DNA from: a virus
DNA length: 39,598 bases
Reading direction: 5' to 3' (one strand)
Virus record (IMG/VR): IMGVR_UViG_3300022745_000082
Location: 1 to 39,598 of that record
The notes under the pieces were generated by a model. The model was given only the letters and a program-made list of their open reading frames with translations, was not told the origin of the DNA and searched no databases. A program made the translations under genes and the position numbers. This document shows positions 2,144 through 32,006 of the stretch, piece after piece (within the stretch, counting starts at the first letter, position 1; each line of letters begins with the position of its first letter).

Positions 2144-3928
2144 TTAAACTGCTTTACCTTCATCTTGCTTTATATCGATACTAATAATAATAGGAAGAGC
2201 AACTGGTAAAGGATTAGTCCCACTATAAGCAATTTCTAAAACAAAATTATTATAACAATAACAGTCTTTAAGTTCAGTACCATTGTAAATAACTTTTTTT
2301 TCACCGGGATTATTAGTGTTATTAATTACTGTAAGAGTTTTGCTACTCTGGAAATTATCGAAATACAAGGTTGGAGTAATAGTAGTATTTGCTGCAACTG
2401 CTCCCGCGAGTGGAATAGATACTTTTACAATATCAGCTTTAACACCTATATTAAATAGAAACCGAATTTTAGACGAAAGTGTTGCAGTTGTGCTGTATTG
2501 ATCGATACCACGAGTAGTATCATCTCTCCAAGCAGGAATACATTTAGGAGTGCGGTTTGAATTTTGCTGCATGTATTTAAGGGCTGTGACAAATGGGTTA
2601 GCTCCAGCAGATGATGTCTTCATCACATTATGAAGTCCGGTAGGAAGATTACTAGACTTTGAACCATATGCCCAAACACATGCTCCAGTACTCGGATACG
2701 TAGAGTATCCACCCCATACAATACGATTACCAAGTGCGTCTACTGCTCCGGCAAACGGTGGCAATCCTTCCTCTTGAAAAACTACTTCTCGTACAGAAAC
2801 GCCACCTTGATAGACTGAAATACGTACTCCATCCTGGGCATTTCCAGTCCAAATATAAAGCGTTCCATTTACGTTTAAGACAGCTGAAGCAATTGGATCA
2901 GCGAAATAAATTGGACCAGTTGTCCATGAATCTGAGGTAGTATCCCAAATAAGCCATGCAGAACGGCCTTGGTTAGTAGTTGTATCAGTCTGATAAATTC
3001 CAGTAATAAAAAGGTCAGTATCGTAACTTTCAATAGCAGTAGGATAAAACCCAAAAGGTAGGTCAAGCGCATTATATGCAGAAGGAGCAGTTGTTCCATT
3101 AGTATCACCTTCGTTAGTAACTTTTTTAGTATTTATTTTATTAATAATACCTTGACCATTCACAAAGTCACAGAAATATAATGAACTATCACCATGAACA
3201 TGTGCAACATGGTTTGGCATATCAACAGAACGAAATGTAGGATATTTTGTATTAGTAAGTGCAGTAAGAGCAAGAGTTCCTTTCCACCAGTTATCAGTAA
3301 TAAGTGAAGCGTCAGTACGGTTTACTGTAGCAGAACCCGTTGAAGTATCAGTGATAATTTCATTATCAACAAAATGACCATTAATGTTTGAAAGAGTAAG
3401 TGTTCCAGTAGCTCCAGCATCTACATCTGCAGTAATGATAGCTGTAGCCCCTGAAGTTCCTCCAGTAATAGTAAGTCCTACAGTAAAATTACTTGTTTGA
3501 GCGTCATAAGGTAAAGTATTAAGTGGTCCAACCCGTGAAACGTCATCTTTAGATGCTCCTGTTCCAAAGATATAAATATAGTTATTATAGTACTCAGCCC
3601 AGGTAGCGTTAGAGCCAGCAACAGTACCAAGAAGTGTCTCGCCTGTAAGATCTTTTTTGTAAAATACTACTTTACCATTTGTCTGTACAGTCCAAAGTAA
3701 GTTGTCTTTAGGATGAGTTATTTCACGAATAACTGGACCCGTAACATTAGAACTAGAAAATATTGCAGAGCCTACGGGAATAGGAAAACCTGATGTTCGA
3801 ATGTCTGTACTGATTATAGGGAGATCGGGATCAATTGCTGTAGCACTATTATAAGTTCCTTCCACACCGAAATACTGGGATGCTGCCCAGCCTTTATAAA
3901 TTTGATTTACATAAAGATTCTTAATCAC
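2144..3928 (-). CDS. Putative tail/nozzle structural protein
   Basis: This 594-aa protein is rich in aromatic, Thr, Ser and Gly residues and in short beta-strand-like repeats such as NNYIYIFGTG and NGTLYIWTGNAQDG. They suggest a beta-propeller-like body. It begins MIKNLYVNQIYKGWAASQYF. The start overlaps the stop of the adaptor-like gene by four bases (ATGA type), and the adhesin-like gene follows at once. The place directly after the adaptor is where short-tailed phages encode tail nozzle or stabilisation proteins. The exact family is not recognised. Confidence 0.5.
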   Translation of the reverse strand: MIKNLYVNQIYKGWAASQYFGVEGTYNSATAIDPDLPIISTDIRTSGFPIPVGSAIFSSSNVTGPVIREITHPKDNLLWTVQTNGKVVFYKKDLTGETLLGTVAGSNATWAEYYNNYIYIFGTGASKDDVSRVGPLNTLPYDAQTSNFTVGLTITGGTSGATAIITADVDAGATGTLTLSNINGHFVDNEIITDTSTGSATVNRTDASLITDNWWKGTLALTALTNTKYPTFRSVDMPNHVAHVHGDSSLYFCDFVNGQGIINKINTKKVTNEGDTNGTTAPSAYNALDLPFGFYPTAIESYDTDLFITGIYQTDTTTNQGRSAWLIWDTTSDSWTTGPIYFADPIASAVLNVNGTLYIWTGNAQDGVRISVYQGGVSVREVVFQEEGLPPFAGAVDALGNRIVWGGYSTYPSTGACVWAYGSKSSNLPTGLHNVMKTSSAGANPFVTALKYMQQNSNRTPKCIPAWRDDTTRGIDQYSTTATLSSKIRFLFNIGVKADIVKVSIPLAGAVAANTTITPTLYFDNFQSSKTLTVINNTNNPGEKKVIYNGTELKDCYCYNNFVLEIAYSGTNPLPVALPIIISIDIKQDEGKAV

Positions 3929-4830
3929 AGTGTAACGTAATTATTAGGGTTTATTCCTTCTTCATCATCACAGTCACTAATATCAACTGATTGCTTGCCT
4001 CCTATATCTCGAACCATCATATCGTAACCTTCAATAAAAGCTTTATTATAGAGTTCAGCTTTTGTAGTACTTGGATCGACTGAGGTAAAATAAATCTTGA
4101 GTGCTTCATAAACTGGAAGCATATCATGCGGTTCAGGAATAAGAGAAACTTCACCAATAGTATAAGTAGCAGAACCTGCAGTAATAGCAGTTCCACCATA
4201 TGTTCGTACTAAGGTTAAAGTTGAAGTAGTTGGTACAGTTGCTATTTCATACCAATAATTATCTCCCCAATTAGCAGCATTTGATTGGTCAATACGAATA
4301 TAACGACCAATCATTCCAGTTCCCCACGTAACACCTGAACCTGTTATTGTAGTAGTTGTTCCCACCGTTGCTACAGTAGTAATAGTTCCGGTAACGTAAT
4401 CAGATGCAGACAAATCACGTACAATACGACGAGCATTGAATGTAATAGTATTACCAGTAGTAGCTGGTACTGGATATAACTCAATACGTCCATCATATGA
4501 AAAATAGTGTGTAACTGAGTCAGATGTTACAACTACTTGGTTTAATTCATCCCATTCTTCACGAGAAGAAACTTCTTCAGGAATATAACGACGATTACTC
4601 ACAGTCACATAAATGCCTTGTGGTTTTTGAGTATATGCAGGTAAAATATATGCTTGCTGACCAGTAACAGTAGTTTTAGTATACTGTCGCCATAAAAAAG
4701 GCCAATCACGAGATGAAAGGATACGCTTTTCAGTCATATTAATAAGAGTATCAGCAAGTGTTAAAGTAGCTGAAGCACTATTATTAACTAGGTTGCCAAA
4801 TAAATTTCGTCGACCAACAAAAGTTTGCAT
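3925..4830 (-). CDS. Head-tail adaptor-like protein
   Basis: This 301-aa protein has an N-terminal helical part with RILSSRDWPFLWRQYTKTTV, then TGQQAYILPAYTQKPQGIYV and a beta-rich middle. The W-PFLW-x-T...Y-LP-x-V layout resembles phage adaptor proteins of the SU10/DUF6682 type that link the portal to the tail. Near the C-terminus PEPHDMLPVYEALKIYF gives the expected helical segment. Residues about 140-225 form a Thr/Gly-rich insertion. The context, between virion genes and immediately before a tail protein, supports the assignment. A generic virion protein is the alternative. Confidence 0.5.
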   Translation of the reverse strand: MQTFVGRRNLFGNLVNNSASATLTLADTLINMTEKRILSSRDWPFLWRQYTKTTVTGQQAYILPAYTQKPQGIYVTVSNRRYIPEEVSSREEWDELNQVVVTSDSVTHYFSYDGRIELYPVPATTGNTITFNARRIVRDLSASDYVTGTITTVATVGTTTTITGSGVTWGTGMIGRYIRIDQSNAANWGDNYWYEIATVPTTSTLTLVRTYGGTAITAGSATYTIGEVSLIPEPHDMLPVYEALKIYFTSVDPSTTKAELYNKAFIEGYDMMVRDIGGKQSVDISDCDDEEGINPNNYVTL

Positions 4831-9526: not shown

Positions 9527-10135
9527 TTAGCTGATAATGTTTTTCTTTTTTGTTGACCAAAACTTTTTAGCTCTAACTTCTTTAGTTTGTATACTTTTAA
9601 TTTTTCGACCTTCTGGAGTCCCGTGATGAAGACTAAGATGTTCTGAATTAGAAATTAATAGTAAGTTAGTAATTCTATTATCTTGTTTGTTTCGATTTAT
9701 ATGATGAATATGCTCATCGCTACGTAAATCTCTTTTTAATTCAAGAGACATTACATATCTATGTTCTTTTACATATATTCCATCTATCCGTACAAGTACA
9801 TAACCTTCTTTACTAATTGTTCTTCCCCCTTTCCAACAAGAATTATTTTCTCCTTTTCCATAATTTAAAGTTTTAATAACTTTATTTCTATGTTCTAAAG
9901 AAAGTTTTTTACCAGTATGAGCTAAAGCAATTTTATCTTTTGTTTTCTGAGATAAAACTGCTCCTAGTCTTGGTTTTAATCCTTTTGTTGAAAACGGACG
10001 AGTTGGTATTTCAAACTTTTTTAGCAGTCGAGATATTTGTTTTGGACTTTTACAAAGAACTAATCCTATTTGTTTTACTGATTGTTTTTCTTGAATGTAA
10101 AACTTTTCAAGTTGATTTTTTGTTATTTCCATCAC
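9527..10135 (-). CDS. HNH homing endonuclease (free-standing)
   Basis: This 202-aa protein has an N-terminal helix-turn-helix (EKQSVKQIGLVLCKSPKQIS, about residues 14-36). A middle segment (CWKGGRTISKEGYVLVRI) leads to the HNH core VKEHRYVMSLELKRDL, HIHHINRNKQDNRITNL and SNSEHLSLHHG (about 120-180). This is the HNH_3/GP46-type fold of phage homing endonucleases that nick DNA at intron-less target genes. It lies between the capsid gene and a decoration gene with no sign of splicing, so it is called free-standing. Confidence 0.85.
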   Translation of the reverse strand: MMEITKNQLEKFYIQEKQSVKQIGLVLCKSPKQISRLLKKFEIPTRPFSTKGLKPRLGAVLSQKTKDKIALAHTGKKLSLEHRNKVIKTLNYGKGENNSCWKGGRTISKEGYVLVRIDGIYVKEHRYVMSLELKRDLRSDEHIHHINRNKQDNRITNLLLISNSEHLSLHHGTPEGRKIKSIQTKEVRAKKFWSTKKKNIIS

Positions 10136-10173: not shown

Positions 10174-11172
10174 TCACACAGAAGTAACGCCAGTAAGTTT
10201 TGCATGACGCTTTGGATTGGTTGAAATCAGTTCTCCACCAAGGTAGATGTGACCTACAATAGATGCAGAGTTAGTTGGCTTAATCCAGTCACTCCATGAG
10301 AAACCAAGACCAGTTACATCTGAATAATCATTTCCTGGAATATCCTGTGAACGATATGCAATTGGTGTAGTCATTGCTACTGGAAGTGCATACCAATTAA
10401 GGAAGTCTTCGTTAAGGAAATAAAGAACACCTGAAGTTGACTTTTCATCAGCGATAACAGGGAATCCTTTGTAGTACAAACCAGTGAAACCAGTTCCACC
10501 AATCATACCACCTCCTTCCTTACCAAGACTTGTACCAGGACGAGTCATCATTCCAAAATCCTTAGCAATACGCTCCTGTGGTTGCAAGAGTGATTCATAA
10601 AGAGCAAAAATAGCTTCAGAACAAAGACCAAGAGTTGTCTTTACTGATCCAGAACTTGCTGCGTTGTACAGAGTCGACATTTTAGCGAGACTAAGTACAC
10701 CAGCTGATGCTGTTACGGTAGAACGAAGCTGTGAACTATAGGTAGTACGTGAAAGTGTACCGTAAGTAGCAGCGTTAGTACCATCATCTACAATTGCTTC
10801 AAGACCAAGGAAGTCCTTACCAGAGCCAGTTCCATAGAACAATGTACCAATATCATCAGCCATATCCTGAGCAGTTGACTGCATTTCAAGTTTTGCAAGA
10901 TCGATGATTTGTGTTTCCTTATCTACTTGATTAGTTGAAAGTTCGTCAAGCGGAAGCGCAACTGTCATCTGATAAAACTTTGGTACGAATTCCAAGTTTA
11001 CACGGTTATCAGTTGCTGAGGTTGAGAATGAATCAAAACCTGAGAATGACTGACCAGTTGTATTCTTAGCGTACTTAATTGGAGCCTTAATACGTTCTCC
11101 ACTCCACTTCGATGCTTTTCCTAATACGCGAGCAGCCAGTACGTTTGAGTTAAGTACGGTGTCCACTACTTT
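10174..11172 (-). CDS. Major capsid protein, exon 2
   Basis: This 332-aa segment begins KVVDTVLNSNVLAARVLG. It contains WSGERIKAPIKYAKNTTG, SFSGFDSFSTSATDNRVN, TAQDMADDIGTLFYGTG, FLGLEAIVDDGTNAATYG and LLQPQERIAKDFGMM, and ends NPKRHAKLTGVTSV. These are hallmarks of an HK97-fold major capsid protein. Related capsids have extra N-terminal residues before this point, and here they are supplied by exon 1 at 11940-11887 across a group I intron. Proposed join: complement(10174..11172,11887..11940), 350 aa. Alternatively translation could start at the TTG at 11175, which follows AAGGAG by eight bases, but SD motifs are otherwise rare in this genome. Confidence 0.85.
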   Translation of the reverse strand, partial: KVVDTVLNSNVLAARVLGKASKWSGERIKAPIKYAKNTTGQSFSGFDSFSTSATDNRVNLEFVPKFYQMTVALPLDELSTNQVDKETQIIDLAKLEMQSTAQDMADDIGTLFYGTGSGKDFLGLEAIVDDGTNAATYGTLSRTTYSSQLRSTVTASAGVLSLAKMSTLYNAASSGSVKTTLGLCSEAIFALYESLLQPQERIAKDFGMMTRPGTSLGKEGGGMIGGTGFTGLYYKGFPVIADEKSTSGVLYFLNEDFLNWYALPVAMTTPIAYRSQDIPGNDYSDVTGLGFSWSDWIKPTNSASIVGHIYLGGELISTNPKRHAKLTGVTSV

Positions 11173-11886
11173 CAAATTTGTTACTCCTTAAAAATTAAGG
11201 GGGAAAACTTCTTCTTTAAAGTGTCTTTACACTTGAGTTTTCCTCTACCGTTTCTTTTTGTTATAGCGGTAGTTCAGACTATTACATCAGTCTTACGACT
11301 GTCTCTTCGTTTAGTCGTTGTAGGTGCGAAGTGCTCCTTTTTCTTGTAAAAATCTCATTTTGTTAAAGTAATTTTCTCGTTCTTTCATTTCTTCATTTGA
11401 AATATGATGAAACTTTACTTGTTCATTGTGAAATTTTTCTATGTACTCTTGTAGTAAATCAATCTGTCTTTTTTTGCCACACATGTATTTTCCTACATGA
11501 TTAGCAACTTTTGCAGCTGTTTTACTAGTAGCTTGCCAAGAAATAATATCAATGTTTTTACCATTTTTTGAAATGTGTGAATTTCCACCAAACATTTCTT
11601 TAAAACGTTCAACATTATTATTTCCTTTAGTAGCATTTGCTTGAGAAAATTGAATCAATGGTATGAAGGAAAATCTTCCTGATTTATTTCTTTTACAACG
11701 TTTAATTGTAATTGTACCATCTGCATCCAAGATTCCTGCTGCCCAAGCGTACATATTTTCTGTATCCATATATACTTAGTATACAGTATATAGTGTTAAG
11801 GTGCAACTTCGCTTCCTAGGCGTTATCCTCTTCAGGAACTTCGCCGTATATTAGATGAGATTTTACTTGCCCTCAGTTTTTAGTTA
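11173..11886 (-). ncRNA. Group I intron in the major capsid gene
   Basis: In the minus-strand RNA, P1 pairs exon UUGCCU with intron GGGCAA, giving the usual U-G wobble at the 5' splice site after codon 18. GCGAAGU (11812-11806) pairs with ACUUCGC (11332-11326) as P6, with the endonuclease gene in its loop. P7 is GACUA (11316-11312) with UAGUC (11281-11277), P8 is CAGUC-GUAA-GACUG (11301-11288), and P9 is CUACCG/CGGUAG (11272-11245). Two further hairpins, GGAAAACU/AGUUUUCC and CCUUAA/UUAAGG, follow. The intron ends at the G of TTTG before AAAGTA. That keeps the frame, and an in-frame TAA immediately follows exon 1, so splicing is required. The exact 3' site is the least certain point. Confidence 0.8.
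11311..11769 (-). CDS. Intron-encoded LAGLIDADG homing endonuclease
   Basis: This 152-aa, single-motif enzyme has the signature AWAAGILDADGTITIKRC at residues 8-25, so it probably works as a dimer. It continues IQFSQANATKGNNNVERFKE and CGKKRQIDLLQEYIEKFHN, as in phage and rRNA-intron LAGLIDADG proteins. It lies within the capsid intron, between the two strands of P6. Its last codons (GALRTYND, stop) also form the P6 3' strand and the P7 R element, so coding and ribozyme sequence overlap. It cleaves intron-less capsid alleles to spread the intron (established role of the family). Confidence 0.9.
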   Translation of the reverse strand: MDTENMYAWAAGILDADGTITIKRCKRNKSGRFSFIPLIQFSQANATKGNNNVERFKEMFGGNSHISKNGKNIDIISWQATSKTAAKVANHVGKYMCGKKRQIDLLQEYIEKFHNEQVKFHHISNEEMKERENYFNKMRFLQEKGALRTYND

Positions 11887-11940
11887 AGGCAAAAGACGTG
11901 ATTGCGTAGTTGTAGTTACGCGCGATCCCATAGCAGCCAT
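11887..11940 (-). CDS. Major capsid protein, exon 1
   Basis: Eighteen codons, MAAMGSRVTTTTQSRLLP, begin with the ATG at 11940 just after the scaffold gene. The next codon is TAA, the first bases of the intron. Splicing to 11172 gives ...QSRLLP-KVVDTVLNSN. A short Thr/Ser-rich N-terminus before the VDTVLN segment is what related capsids have. The ATG is preceded by an AT-rich leader without an SD motif, as elsewhere in this genome. Confidence 0.75.
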
Positions 11941-29443: not shown

Positions 29444-30094
29444 ATGAAAGTATATAACACACTTGAAGAAGTGAATGAGGATATTGTAGATAACGTACTC
29501 ACTATCCAGGGAGATGTGACCTTCACAATGCCATTACTCAAGATAGATGCGAGTATTTTAGTCAAGGCAGGGAACATCAAGGCATGGAACATCAATGCAG
29601 GGAGCATCGATGCATGGAACATCGATGCAGGGAACATCAATGCAGGGAGCATCGATGCATGGAACATCGATGCAGGGAGCATCGATGCATGGAACATCAA
29701 GGCATGGGACATCAATGCAGGGGACATCAATGCAGGGGACATCAATGCAGGGAGCATCAATGCAGGGAACATCAAGGCAGGGGACATCAATGCAGGGGAC
29801 ATCAATGCAGGGGACATCAATGCAGGGAGCATCAATGCAGGGAACATCAAGGCAGGGAACATCAAGGCAGGGAACATCAATGCAGGGGACATCAATGCAG
29901 GGGACATCTCATTTTATGCCGTCTGTTGGTCATACTTTTCACTTAAGTGTAAATCAATTGTAGGTCGCCGAGAGAAGTCAAAATACTTCTGCTTAGATAA
30001 AGAAGTAGAGATTATTACCGAACCAGAAGTAATCGAAATGACTGTCGCTGAAATCAGTAAAGCACTTGGAAAGACGATTAAGATTGTAGAATAA
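29444..30094 (+). CDS. Pentapeptide-type repeat protein
   Basis: This 216-aa protein has an N-terminal unit ending VTFTMPLLKIDASILV and 23 five-residue repeats of the form [KND]A[GW][DNS]I (about residues 41-155), predicted to fold as a right-handed beta helix. A conserved C-terminal domain follows (ISFYAVCWSYFSLKCKSIVG, then SKYFCLDKEVEIITE). Proteins with I-x-A-x-D repeats and this tail occur in Firmicutes and phage genomes and are of unknown function. Pentapeptide proteins such as Qnr/MfpA mimic DNA, but the classical A(D/N)LxG pattern is not exact here. The repeats are also near-identical in DNA. Confidence 0.75.
   Translation: MKVYNTLEEVNEDIVDNVLTIQGDVTFTMPLLKIDASILVKAGNIKAWNINAGSIDAWNIDAGNINAGSIDAWNIDAGSIDAWNIKAWDINAGDINAGDINAGSINAGNIKAGDINAGDINAGDINAGSINAGNIKAGNIKAGNINAGDINAGDISFYAVCWSYFSLKCKSIVGRREKSKYFCLDKEVEIITEPEVIEMTVAEISKALGKTIKIVE
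29564..29908 (+). repeat. 15-bp tandem repeat array, 23 units
   Basis: Units close to GGGGACATCAATGCA follow head to tail for 345 bp. The array is almost free of synonymous drift, and because 15 is a multiple of three other frames also stay open. Units differ mainly by one or two bases (GGGA/GGGG, CAA/CGA). This points to recent slippage or recombination-driven growth. Confidence 0.9.
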
Positions 30095-31056: not shown

Positions 31057-31377
31057 CACACAGATGAAGTGGTAGGTTGGAAGGAAAATTTACGTGATTG
31101 GTGGTACTCAGTACAGGACTTGCTCGCGGATAAGGATGTTTGTCTACATGAGCGCAAGCGTGTAGAATTTGAACACATAATCCAAAAAGCCCTAACCACC
31201 GCCCAGTCCGCTAAGGTGGAGGAGGTGCGAGTTTCAATCAAACGTGAACTAGACGAATTGTCGGATATGTTCGGTCGAATAGGTGACAAAGAGGTAGTAC
31301 ACACTATTGGCCGTGTCCGTAAGCGTATAGCTAAAGTACTCCCCACCCCTGCCGAGGTTACTAGTCATAAGAAATGA
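31051..31377 (+). CDS. Hypothetical early protein, 108 aa
   Basis: Reads MTHTDEVVGWKENLRDWWYS, then EFEHIIQKALTTAQSAKVEE and RELDELSDMFGRIGDKEVVH, a helical, charged protein. It overlaps the AP2/HNH-type gene by four bases. Function unknown. Confidence 0.5.
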   Translation: MTHTDEVVGWKENLRDWWYSVQDLLADKDVCLHERKRVEFEHIIQKALTTAQSAKVEEVRVSIKRELDELSDMFGRIGDKEVVHTIGRVRKRIAKVLPTPAEVTSHKK

Positions 31378-32006
31378 GTATGACTACGTTTACTCATGGG
31401 CATAGTACGAACAGCCGACTATACCGTTGCTGGCAATCCATGAAAGCAAGGTGTGATAACCCAAACAATACAAAGTATGCCAATTATGGTGGTCGAGGCA
31501 TCACCTATCAATCATCATGGAAAAATTTTGAGGCTTTCTTGCGTGATATGGGTGACTTGTACTATGCACATGCTTTTATGTTTGGTGAGAAAGATACTAC
31601 ATTAGACCGTATCAATTCAGATAGACGATACTCAAAGAAGAACTGTCGTTGGGCTACTAGAGCAGAGCAAACGCGCAATCGCAAAACATCTGTTTACTAT
31701 AAGGGAGAGTATTCTTGTGATGCGTCTATACGCCTCGGTGGTGATATTGACTCAGTCAATGTAAGGATGAGACACGGTTGGAGTTTAAATAAGGCATTCA
31801 CAACCCCTTTCAACAAAACACGATTGATGAATAAGTACAAATACAAGGGCCTTGAAATGACAGTGCCAGAGCTGGCTAAAGTCAATGGATTAAAGCCTAA
31901 GACGATAATGGCGCGAATAGAGAAGTATGGCTGGACAGTAGCTCGTGCTGTTGAAACGCCAGCCAAACACAACGTAGACTTATCAAAGACGGATGTAACA
32001 AATTAA
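31374..32006 (+). CDS. AP2/HNH-type endonuclease-like protein
   Basis: This 210-aa protein contains LYRCWQSMKARCDNPNNTKY, then YGGRGITYQSSWKNFEAFLR, LDRINSDRRYSKKNCRWATR and AEQTRNRKT. The order YRxWxxMKxRCxNPxxxxYxxYGGRGI...DRIxxxxxYxxxNCRWATxxEQ is a common phage DNA-binding, homing-type nuclease family. The C-terminal part (ELAKVNGLKPKTIMARIEKY) is an HTH. It was probably inserted among the small early genes. Confidence 0.75.
   Translation: MSMTTFTHGHSTNSRLYRCWQSMKARCDNPNNTKYANYGGRGITYQSSWKNFEAFLRDMGDLYYAHAFMFGEKDTTLDRINSDRRYSKKNCRWATRAEQTRNRKTSVYYKGEYSCDASIRLGGDIDSVNVRMRHGWSLNKAFTTPFNKTRLMNKYKYKGLEMTVPELAKVNGLKPKTIMARIEKYGWTVARAVETPAKHNVDLSKTDVTN

Follow-up and report, generated by a model that had tools for sequence, protein, structure and literature searches.

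Introns in phage capsid genes are already known as a kind. The major capsid gene of LittleE, a cluster J mycobacteriophage, contains an intron whose splicing was established by RT-PCR and N-terminal sequencing (PMC3706429). The same source cites a group I intron in the capsid-subunit gene of the lactococcal phage Tuc2009, whose likeness to the present case is known from that citation alone. In crAss-like phages of the Delta and Zeta groups, group I introns are found in the MCP gene, sometimes several per gene, and one such gene is in five pieces (PMC7886860). In Jug phages, group I introns number in the thousands, and metatranscriptomes support some of them (PMC12363816).

The locus analyzed here lies in a DNA stretch of 39,598 nucleotides from an uncultured bacterial virus (IMG/VR record IMGVR_UViG_3300022745_000082, positions 1 to 39,598; hereafter, the window). 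Its major capsid gene is very probably split after codon 18 by a group I intron that carries an I-CreI-type LAGLIDADG enzyme in its P6 loop and that would splice itself out and home. As in LittleE, a group I-like intron (about 0.8 kb in that phage) with a LAGLIDADG-like ORF resides in the major capsid gene; in LittleE, however, the endonuclease-like frame is on the opposite strand, the intron is called only "most likely" group I, and neither the phage nor the insertion site nor the sequence is the same (PMC3706429). The crAss-like introns belong to another phage lineage and were identified mainly by endonuclease domains (PMC7886860). No description of this insertion site, phage or intron lineage was found in the literature and collections searched.

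Continuity of the capsid gene across the insert

The 333-aa ORF 11175-10174(-) matches the phrog_9953 major head protein profile (1e-42). Exon 2 covers profile positions 23-327, the N-terminal part of the profile being without match, and the ORF is short of the first 18 capsid residues. Exon 1, directly followed by an in-frame TAA after its last codon at 11887, provides the missing N-terminus, as in homologues. Among the 44 IMG/VR homologues fetched, the close ones carry a peptide like MAALGTRVTTTTQSKLLP in frame, immediately before KVVD, and an intronless example reads uninterrupted across the junction, with MAAMGSRVTTTTQSKLLP followed directly by KVVDTILNSNV. Joining 11887 to 11172 yields a 350-aa protein in which no residue is gained or lost at the junction compared with the homologues. 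As these are contiguous through the junction, the window carries an insert of 714 nt (11886-11173) at LLP-KVVD (the hyphen marks the insertion point). The intron is absent from nearly all capsid homologues, and the junction DNA is variable at third codon positions among relatives.

Every coordinate that the earlier note had given for exons and intron checks, as does the 350-aa joined product. Its observation that the capsid frame lacks N-terminal residues is borne out by the relatives, which carry exon 1-like residues contiguous with exon 2; homologues beginning exactly at the TTG at 11175 without these residues, which it had named beforehand as counter-evidence, are not what is found.

Table 1. 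Positions in the window of the split capsid gene, its intron and the neighboring genes
Feature	Position	Strand	Details
Terminase	16551-14959	(-)	
Portal	14915-13092	(-)	
243-aa acidic protein, scaffold position	12690-11959	(-)	
Exon 1, major capsid gene	11887..11940	(-)	54 nt, 18 codons, peptide MAAMGSRVTTTTQSRLLP
Group I intron	11173..11886	(-)	714 nt; starts TAA, last base G
P1	11867..11892	(-)	exon UUGCCU 11892-11887 + intron GGGCAA 11872-11867; U.G at splice site; from sequence and predicted fold
P3	11854..11860 with 11308-11302	(-)	UCUCAUC with GAAGAGA; both-side changes in 6/7 pairs, 23 cores
P4	11845-11842 with 11822-11819	(-)	GGCG with CGCC; invariant in 23/23 cores
J4/5 and J5/4	within 11819..11845	(-)	both AA
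P5 hairpin	11837-11826	(-)	UCCU-GAAG-AGGA
P6	11806..11818 with 11321..11332	(-)	UAGGAAGCGAAGU with ACUUCGCACCUA; both-side changes in 4/4 tested pairs
LAGLIDADG homing endonuclease gene	11311..11769	(-)	152 aa; PF00961
P7	11316-11312 with 11281-11277	(-)	GACUA with UAGUC; invariant; encloses P3′ (11308-11302) and P8
P8	11301-11288	(-)	CAGUC-GUAA-GACUG; covariation in 3/3 tested pairs
P9 hairpin	11245..11272	(-)	CUACCG/CGGUAG; both-side changes in 5/6 pairs
Last hairpin and conserved 3′ end	11173..11200	(-)	CCUUAA/UUAAGG 11200-11186; 3′ end AGUAACAAAUUUG
Exon 2, major capsid gene	10174..11172	(-)	332 codons + stop
HNH homing-type endonuclease gene	9527-10135	(-)	HNH_3, 3.8e-8; between capsid stop and next gene

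Group I core, endonuclease and proposed mode of action

The insert displays several features of membership in group I: the core helices P3, P4, P6, P7 and P8 in P3/P7 pseudoknot order, a P1 with U.G formed by an internal guide, and a G at the 3′ splice site, which is reached after P9 and two further hairpins. Helices P6, P7, P8 and P9 lie where the earlier note had located them, and P1, P3, P4 and P5 are present as well. The fifth P3 pair is an A.A mismatch; the same pair is missing in six relatives too. Folding of the ORF-less intron gave a z value of -5.1 against 200 shuffles. The predicted fold contains P1, P4, P5, P6, P9 and the later hairpins, and places the P7/P8 region in a competing pairing, the folding program being unable to form the P3/P7 pseudoknot. 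A search for P10 by eye in the window intron found no clear pairing, and a promoter/terminator scan gave nothing above chance.

Related introns were collected with DNA patterns taken from the intron core only, with no exon sequence. Those with both halves resolved, 23 including the window intron, were used for covariation; cut down to their paired segments, the 23 cores align without gaps. Standard pairs occupy 99.0% of the pair cells, vs. 73.8% in shuffled and 31-41% in slid cores. Changes on both sides occur in 18 of 29 pairs, and double-changed pair cells amount to 162, compared with 44.9 in the shuffles. Covariation is found in P3, P6, P8 and P9, whereas P4 and P7, which formed part of the search patterns, are invariant partly for that reason and therefore uninformative in this respect. 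Cores were included when at least 6 of 7 P3 pairs were present, and for P9 the 3′ strand was selected by best complementarity; the evidence from these two helices is therefore weaker than that from P6 and P8, whose placement followed from position alone. Both the fold z value and the covariation show that the core pairing is beyond chance, and comparison with related sequences confirms the group I identity of the insert.

A match of the Rfam group I model at 11173-11886, suggested in the earlier note as a check, did not materialize: RF00028 (Intron_gpI) has no match on the window, either at gathering or at E<=10. The gathering cut-off of this model, 50 bits, is a threshold for detection and does not define the class. 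At gathering, eight loci bearing capsid introns, related or otherwise, were missed as well, and at a lax threshold a single relative was matched (L049, 4524-4829, 21.8 bits), in the same register of core helices. The miss on the window reflects low sensitivity of the model, not absence of the intron; with that one sub-threshold match as the sole exception, the related introns escape RF00028 too, so the check is not decisive.

The 152-aa protein encoded in the intron matches PF00961 above the cut-off (3.9e-5), and its single LAGLIDADG motif is AAGILDADG, with the acidic residue. A profile made from nine enzymes of the lineage finds I-MsoI (7e-25) and I-CreI (about 1e-12), and the AlphaFold model of the protein (pLDDT 86.6) matches I-CvuI, I-CreI and I-MsoI. 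The single motif and the predicted alpha-beta-beta-alpha-beta-beta-alpha fold are membership features of the I-CreI type. The three known enzymes likewise have one LAGLIDADG motif, about 150-170 aa and the same predicted fold, and are also encoded by group I introns; they differ in showing only 13-18% identity to the window enzyme. I-CreI, I-CvuI and I-MsoI sit in algal organelle rRNA genes. By analogy with these relatives, the window enzyme would be expected to act as a homodimer. When related loci were searched for with the LAGLIDADG protein, no relatives were obtained, whereas the intron DNA pattern retrieved some, because the enzymes of the lineage are too diverged. The placement of the gene in the P6 loop, as proposed in the earlier note, holds for its start; its last codons and stop, however, run into P6′ and the first P7 strand.

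The exact insertion with respect to homologues, the covarying catalytic core, the matched P1 and the intact enzyme fold argue together for a group I intron. From these features we infer splicing in vivo, cleavage by the endonuclease and homing. Guanosine would attack after U11887 and the exon would then be ligated to A11172, after G11173, giving the junction ...CUUUUGCCU-AAAGUAGUG... and a spliced transcript that would be translated into the 350-aa capsid protein. When a co-infecting phage has an intronless capsid allele, the endonuclease would cut that allele in the LLP-KVVD region, and repair would copy the intron in.

Large amounts of capsid are required, hence splicing efficiency must matter, and the lineage is found mainly in late structural genes. 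On these grounds the intron might be thought to regulate capsid production, by being retained under some conditions and spliced under others, rather than to be a purely selfish element. We consider this reading, which the earlier note had raised, unsupported and improbable: the intron is missing from nearly all homologues, it carries a homing enzyme, and neither a regulatory structure nor a second form was seen in it.

It is even less probable that capsid synthesis starts at TTG 11175, with the 18 upstream codons and the LAGLIDADG gene as a remnant or free-standing gene and splicing unnecessary. A good Shine-Dalgarno-like GGAG does precede this TTG, and little of the head-protein profile falls outside the 333-aa ORF, but in close capsid homologues the N-terminal residues are in one frame with the remainder. 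Moreover, GGAG...TTG corresponds to the intron's last hairpin and its conserved 3′ end, which recur in related introns whatever the gene or frame: AGTAACA then TG, after a small hairpin, closes most of them. In the related intron of locus L017 the 3′ end reads CTG-ACG, with no start codon. TTG 11175 was rejected as a start site, since it is part of the conserved intron 3′ end. A dead or dying group I intron, splicing inefficiently and sequenced from a defective variant, is just as improbable: although a single sequence in the set has the intron at this site, no helix is broken, the endonuclease frame and both flanking exons are intact, and P4, P7, J4/5 and J5/4 are the same as in all relatives.

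For a group I intron at this position, gene callers would give a 333-aa capsid protein with a false start and 18 residues missed, while the Rfam group I model remains silent.

Related introns: insertion sites and interrupted genes

Introns are also found at other sites of homologous capsid genes. In L017 a related intron lies 12 nt downstream of the window site, after ...LVD, with its P1 re-matched to its own exon (UGUGGAU/GUCCACA). Compared with the window, its 5′ core is 84% identical, the intron ORF 57% and exon 2 68%, and its enzyme has diverged to 37% identity. An HNH-type gene is located at about 1750-2244 in L017, immediately upstream of the intron-bearing capsid gene. One homologous capsid gene, that of L033, has by eye two group I-like inserts with HNH-type ORFs (2102-2973 and about 3687-4556), quite different from those above, at RVT-TTTQ and near FTGL-FFKGFP; the P1 of the former (AGUCACU/GGUGACU) has a guide that fits its own exon. 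Three of the four insertion points in the window, L017 and L033 fall within about 40 nt of coding sequence. As far as sequences can tell, such an arrangement is what homing or repeated insertion produces, and the intron is probably a mobile element.

Two introns of the same lineage per capsid gene were observed in L046, L049 and L062. The second intron of L046 and of L062 has a LAGLIDADG gene, that of L062 being recognized only by its LAGLIDADG frame; the second L049 intron has a P6 loop of just 107 nt and no full gene.

Major capsid genes are interrupted by 18 of the 23 resolved introns. Twelve are in phrog_9953-type genes (window, L017, two each in L046 and L049, L057, L058, L059, L062, L066 and L087), as called by profile matches or homology to L057, or by visible homology only for L062. 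Five are in phrog_267-type capsid genes (L047, L070, L071, L102 and L106; for L071, L102 and L106 the matches are weak, 1e-4 to 6e-4), and the gene interrupted in L074 is an SU10-type capsid gene. The rest comprise L064 and L095, which are probable cases, L055, to which no gene was assigned, and L063 and L065, with introns in a large phrog_14959-type protein (L065 by eye). Introns of the lineage whose 3′ half was not resolved are located in capsid genes (L068, L077, L078, L096), in tape measure genes (L073, L081 and, by eye, L093), in several genes for phrog_14959/24896 proteins (including L069, L083 and L084; others by eye) and in an anaerobic ribonucleotide reductase gene (L067).

These assignments suggest that the lineage sits mostly in virion structural genes, capsid genes being the commonest; the enrichment is suggestive and not proven, as the counts are non-independent and the patterns may favor one branch. 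The earlier note had considered capsid introns with LAGLIDADG enzymes to be far less common than introns in other genes. That view fits the few published examples but fails within this lineage. When a related core stripped of its ORF was compared with 50,697 phage records by distant blastn, no match was returned, the lineage being unseen in that collection. Tentatively, these introns may represent a distinct group I lineage, below the Rfam cut-off and specialized in virion structural genes, whose members occupy major capsid genes from no fewer than three PHROG families, at several positions and in some cases twice per gene, and carry either LAGLIDADG genes within the P6 loop or HNH genes near P9; conserved late structural genes would be the preferred homing targets of the lineage, hence the pattern. 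As the wider lineage shows, capsid introns that carry homing enzymes are more than a few stray cases among phages. Capsid genes make up most of what a DNA pattern from the intron core alone retrieves, and the introns so obtained offer a starting point for asking why mobile introns take up residence in the genes whose products are required in the greatest quantity.

Genome neighborhood

On the minus strand, terminase, portal, acidic protein, split capsid gene and HNH gene follow one another, with further genes beyond. The distance from the end of the capsid match to the start of the next gene is 24-56 nt in 14 relatives; the HNH gene is therefore an insertion. The capsid gene is thus both split by an intron and directly followed by an endonuclease gene. 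Neither the nearest annotated capsid relative (a TM7 phage, 32%) nor the terminase (many unrelated phages at about 25%) fixes the host. On the plus strand, positions 31374-32006 encode a 210-aa protein that by eye resembles an AP2/HNH-type homing protein, with no Pfam match, and positions 29444-30094 encode a protein in which a five-residue unit (INAGD/INAGN) recurs many times almost unchanged, pentapeptide-like in appearance.
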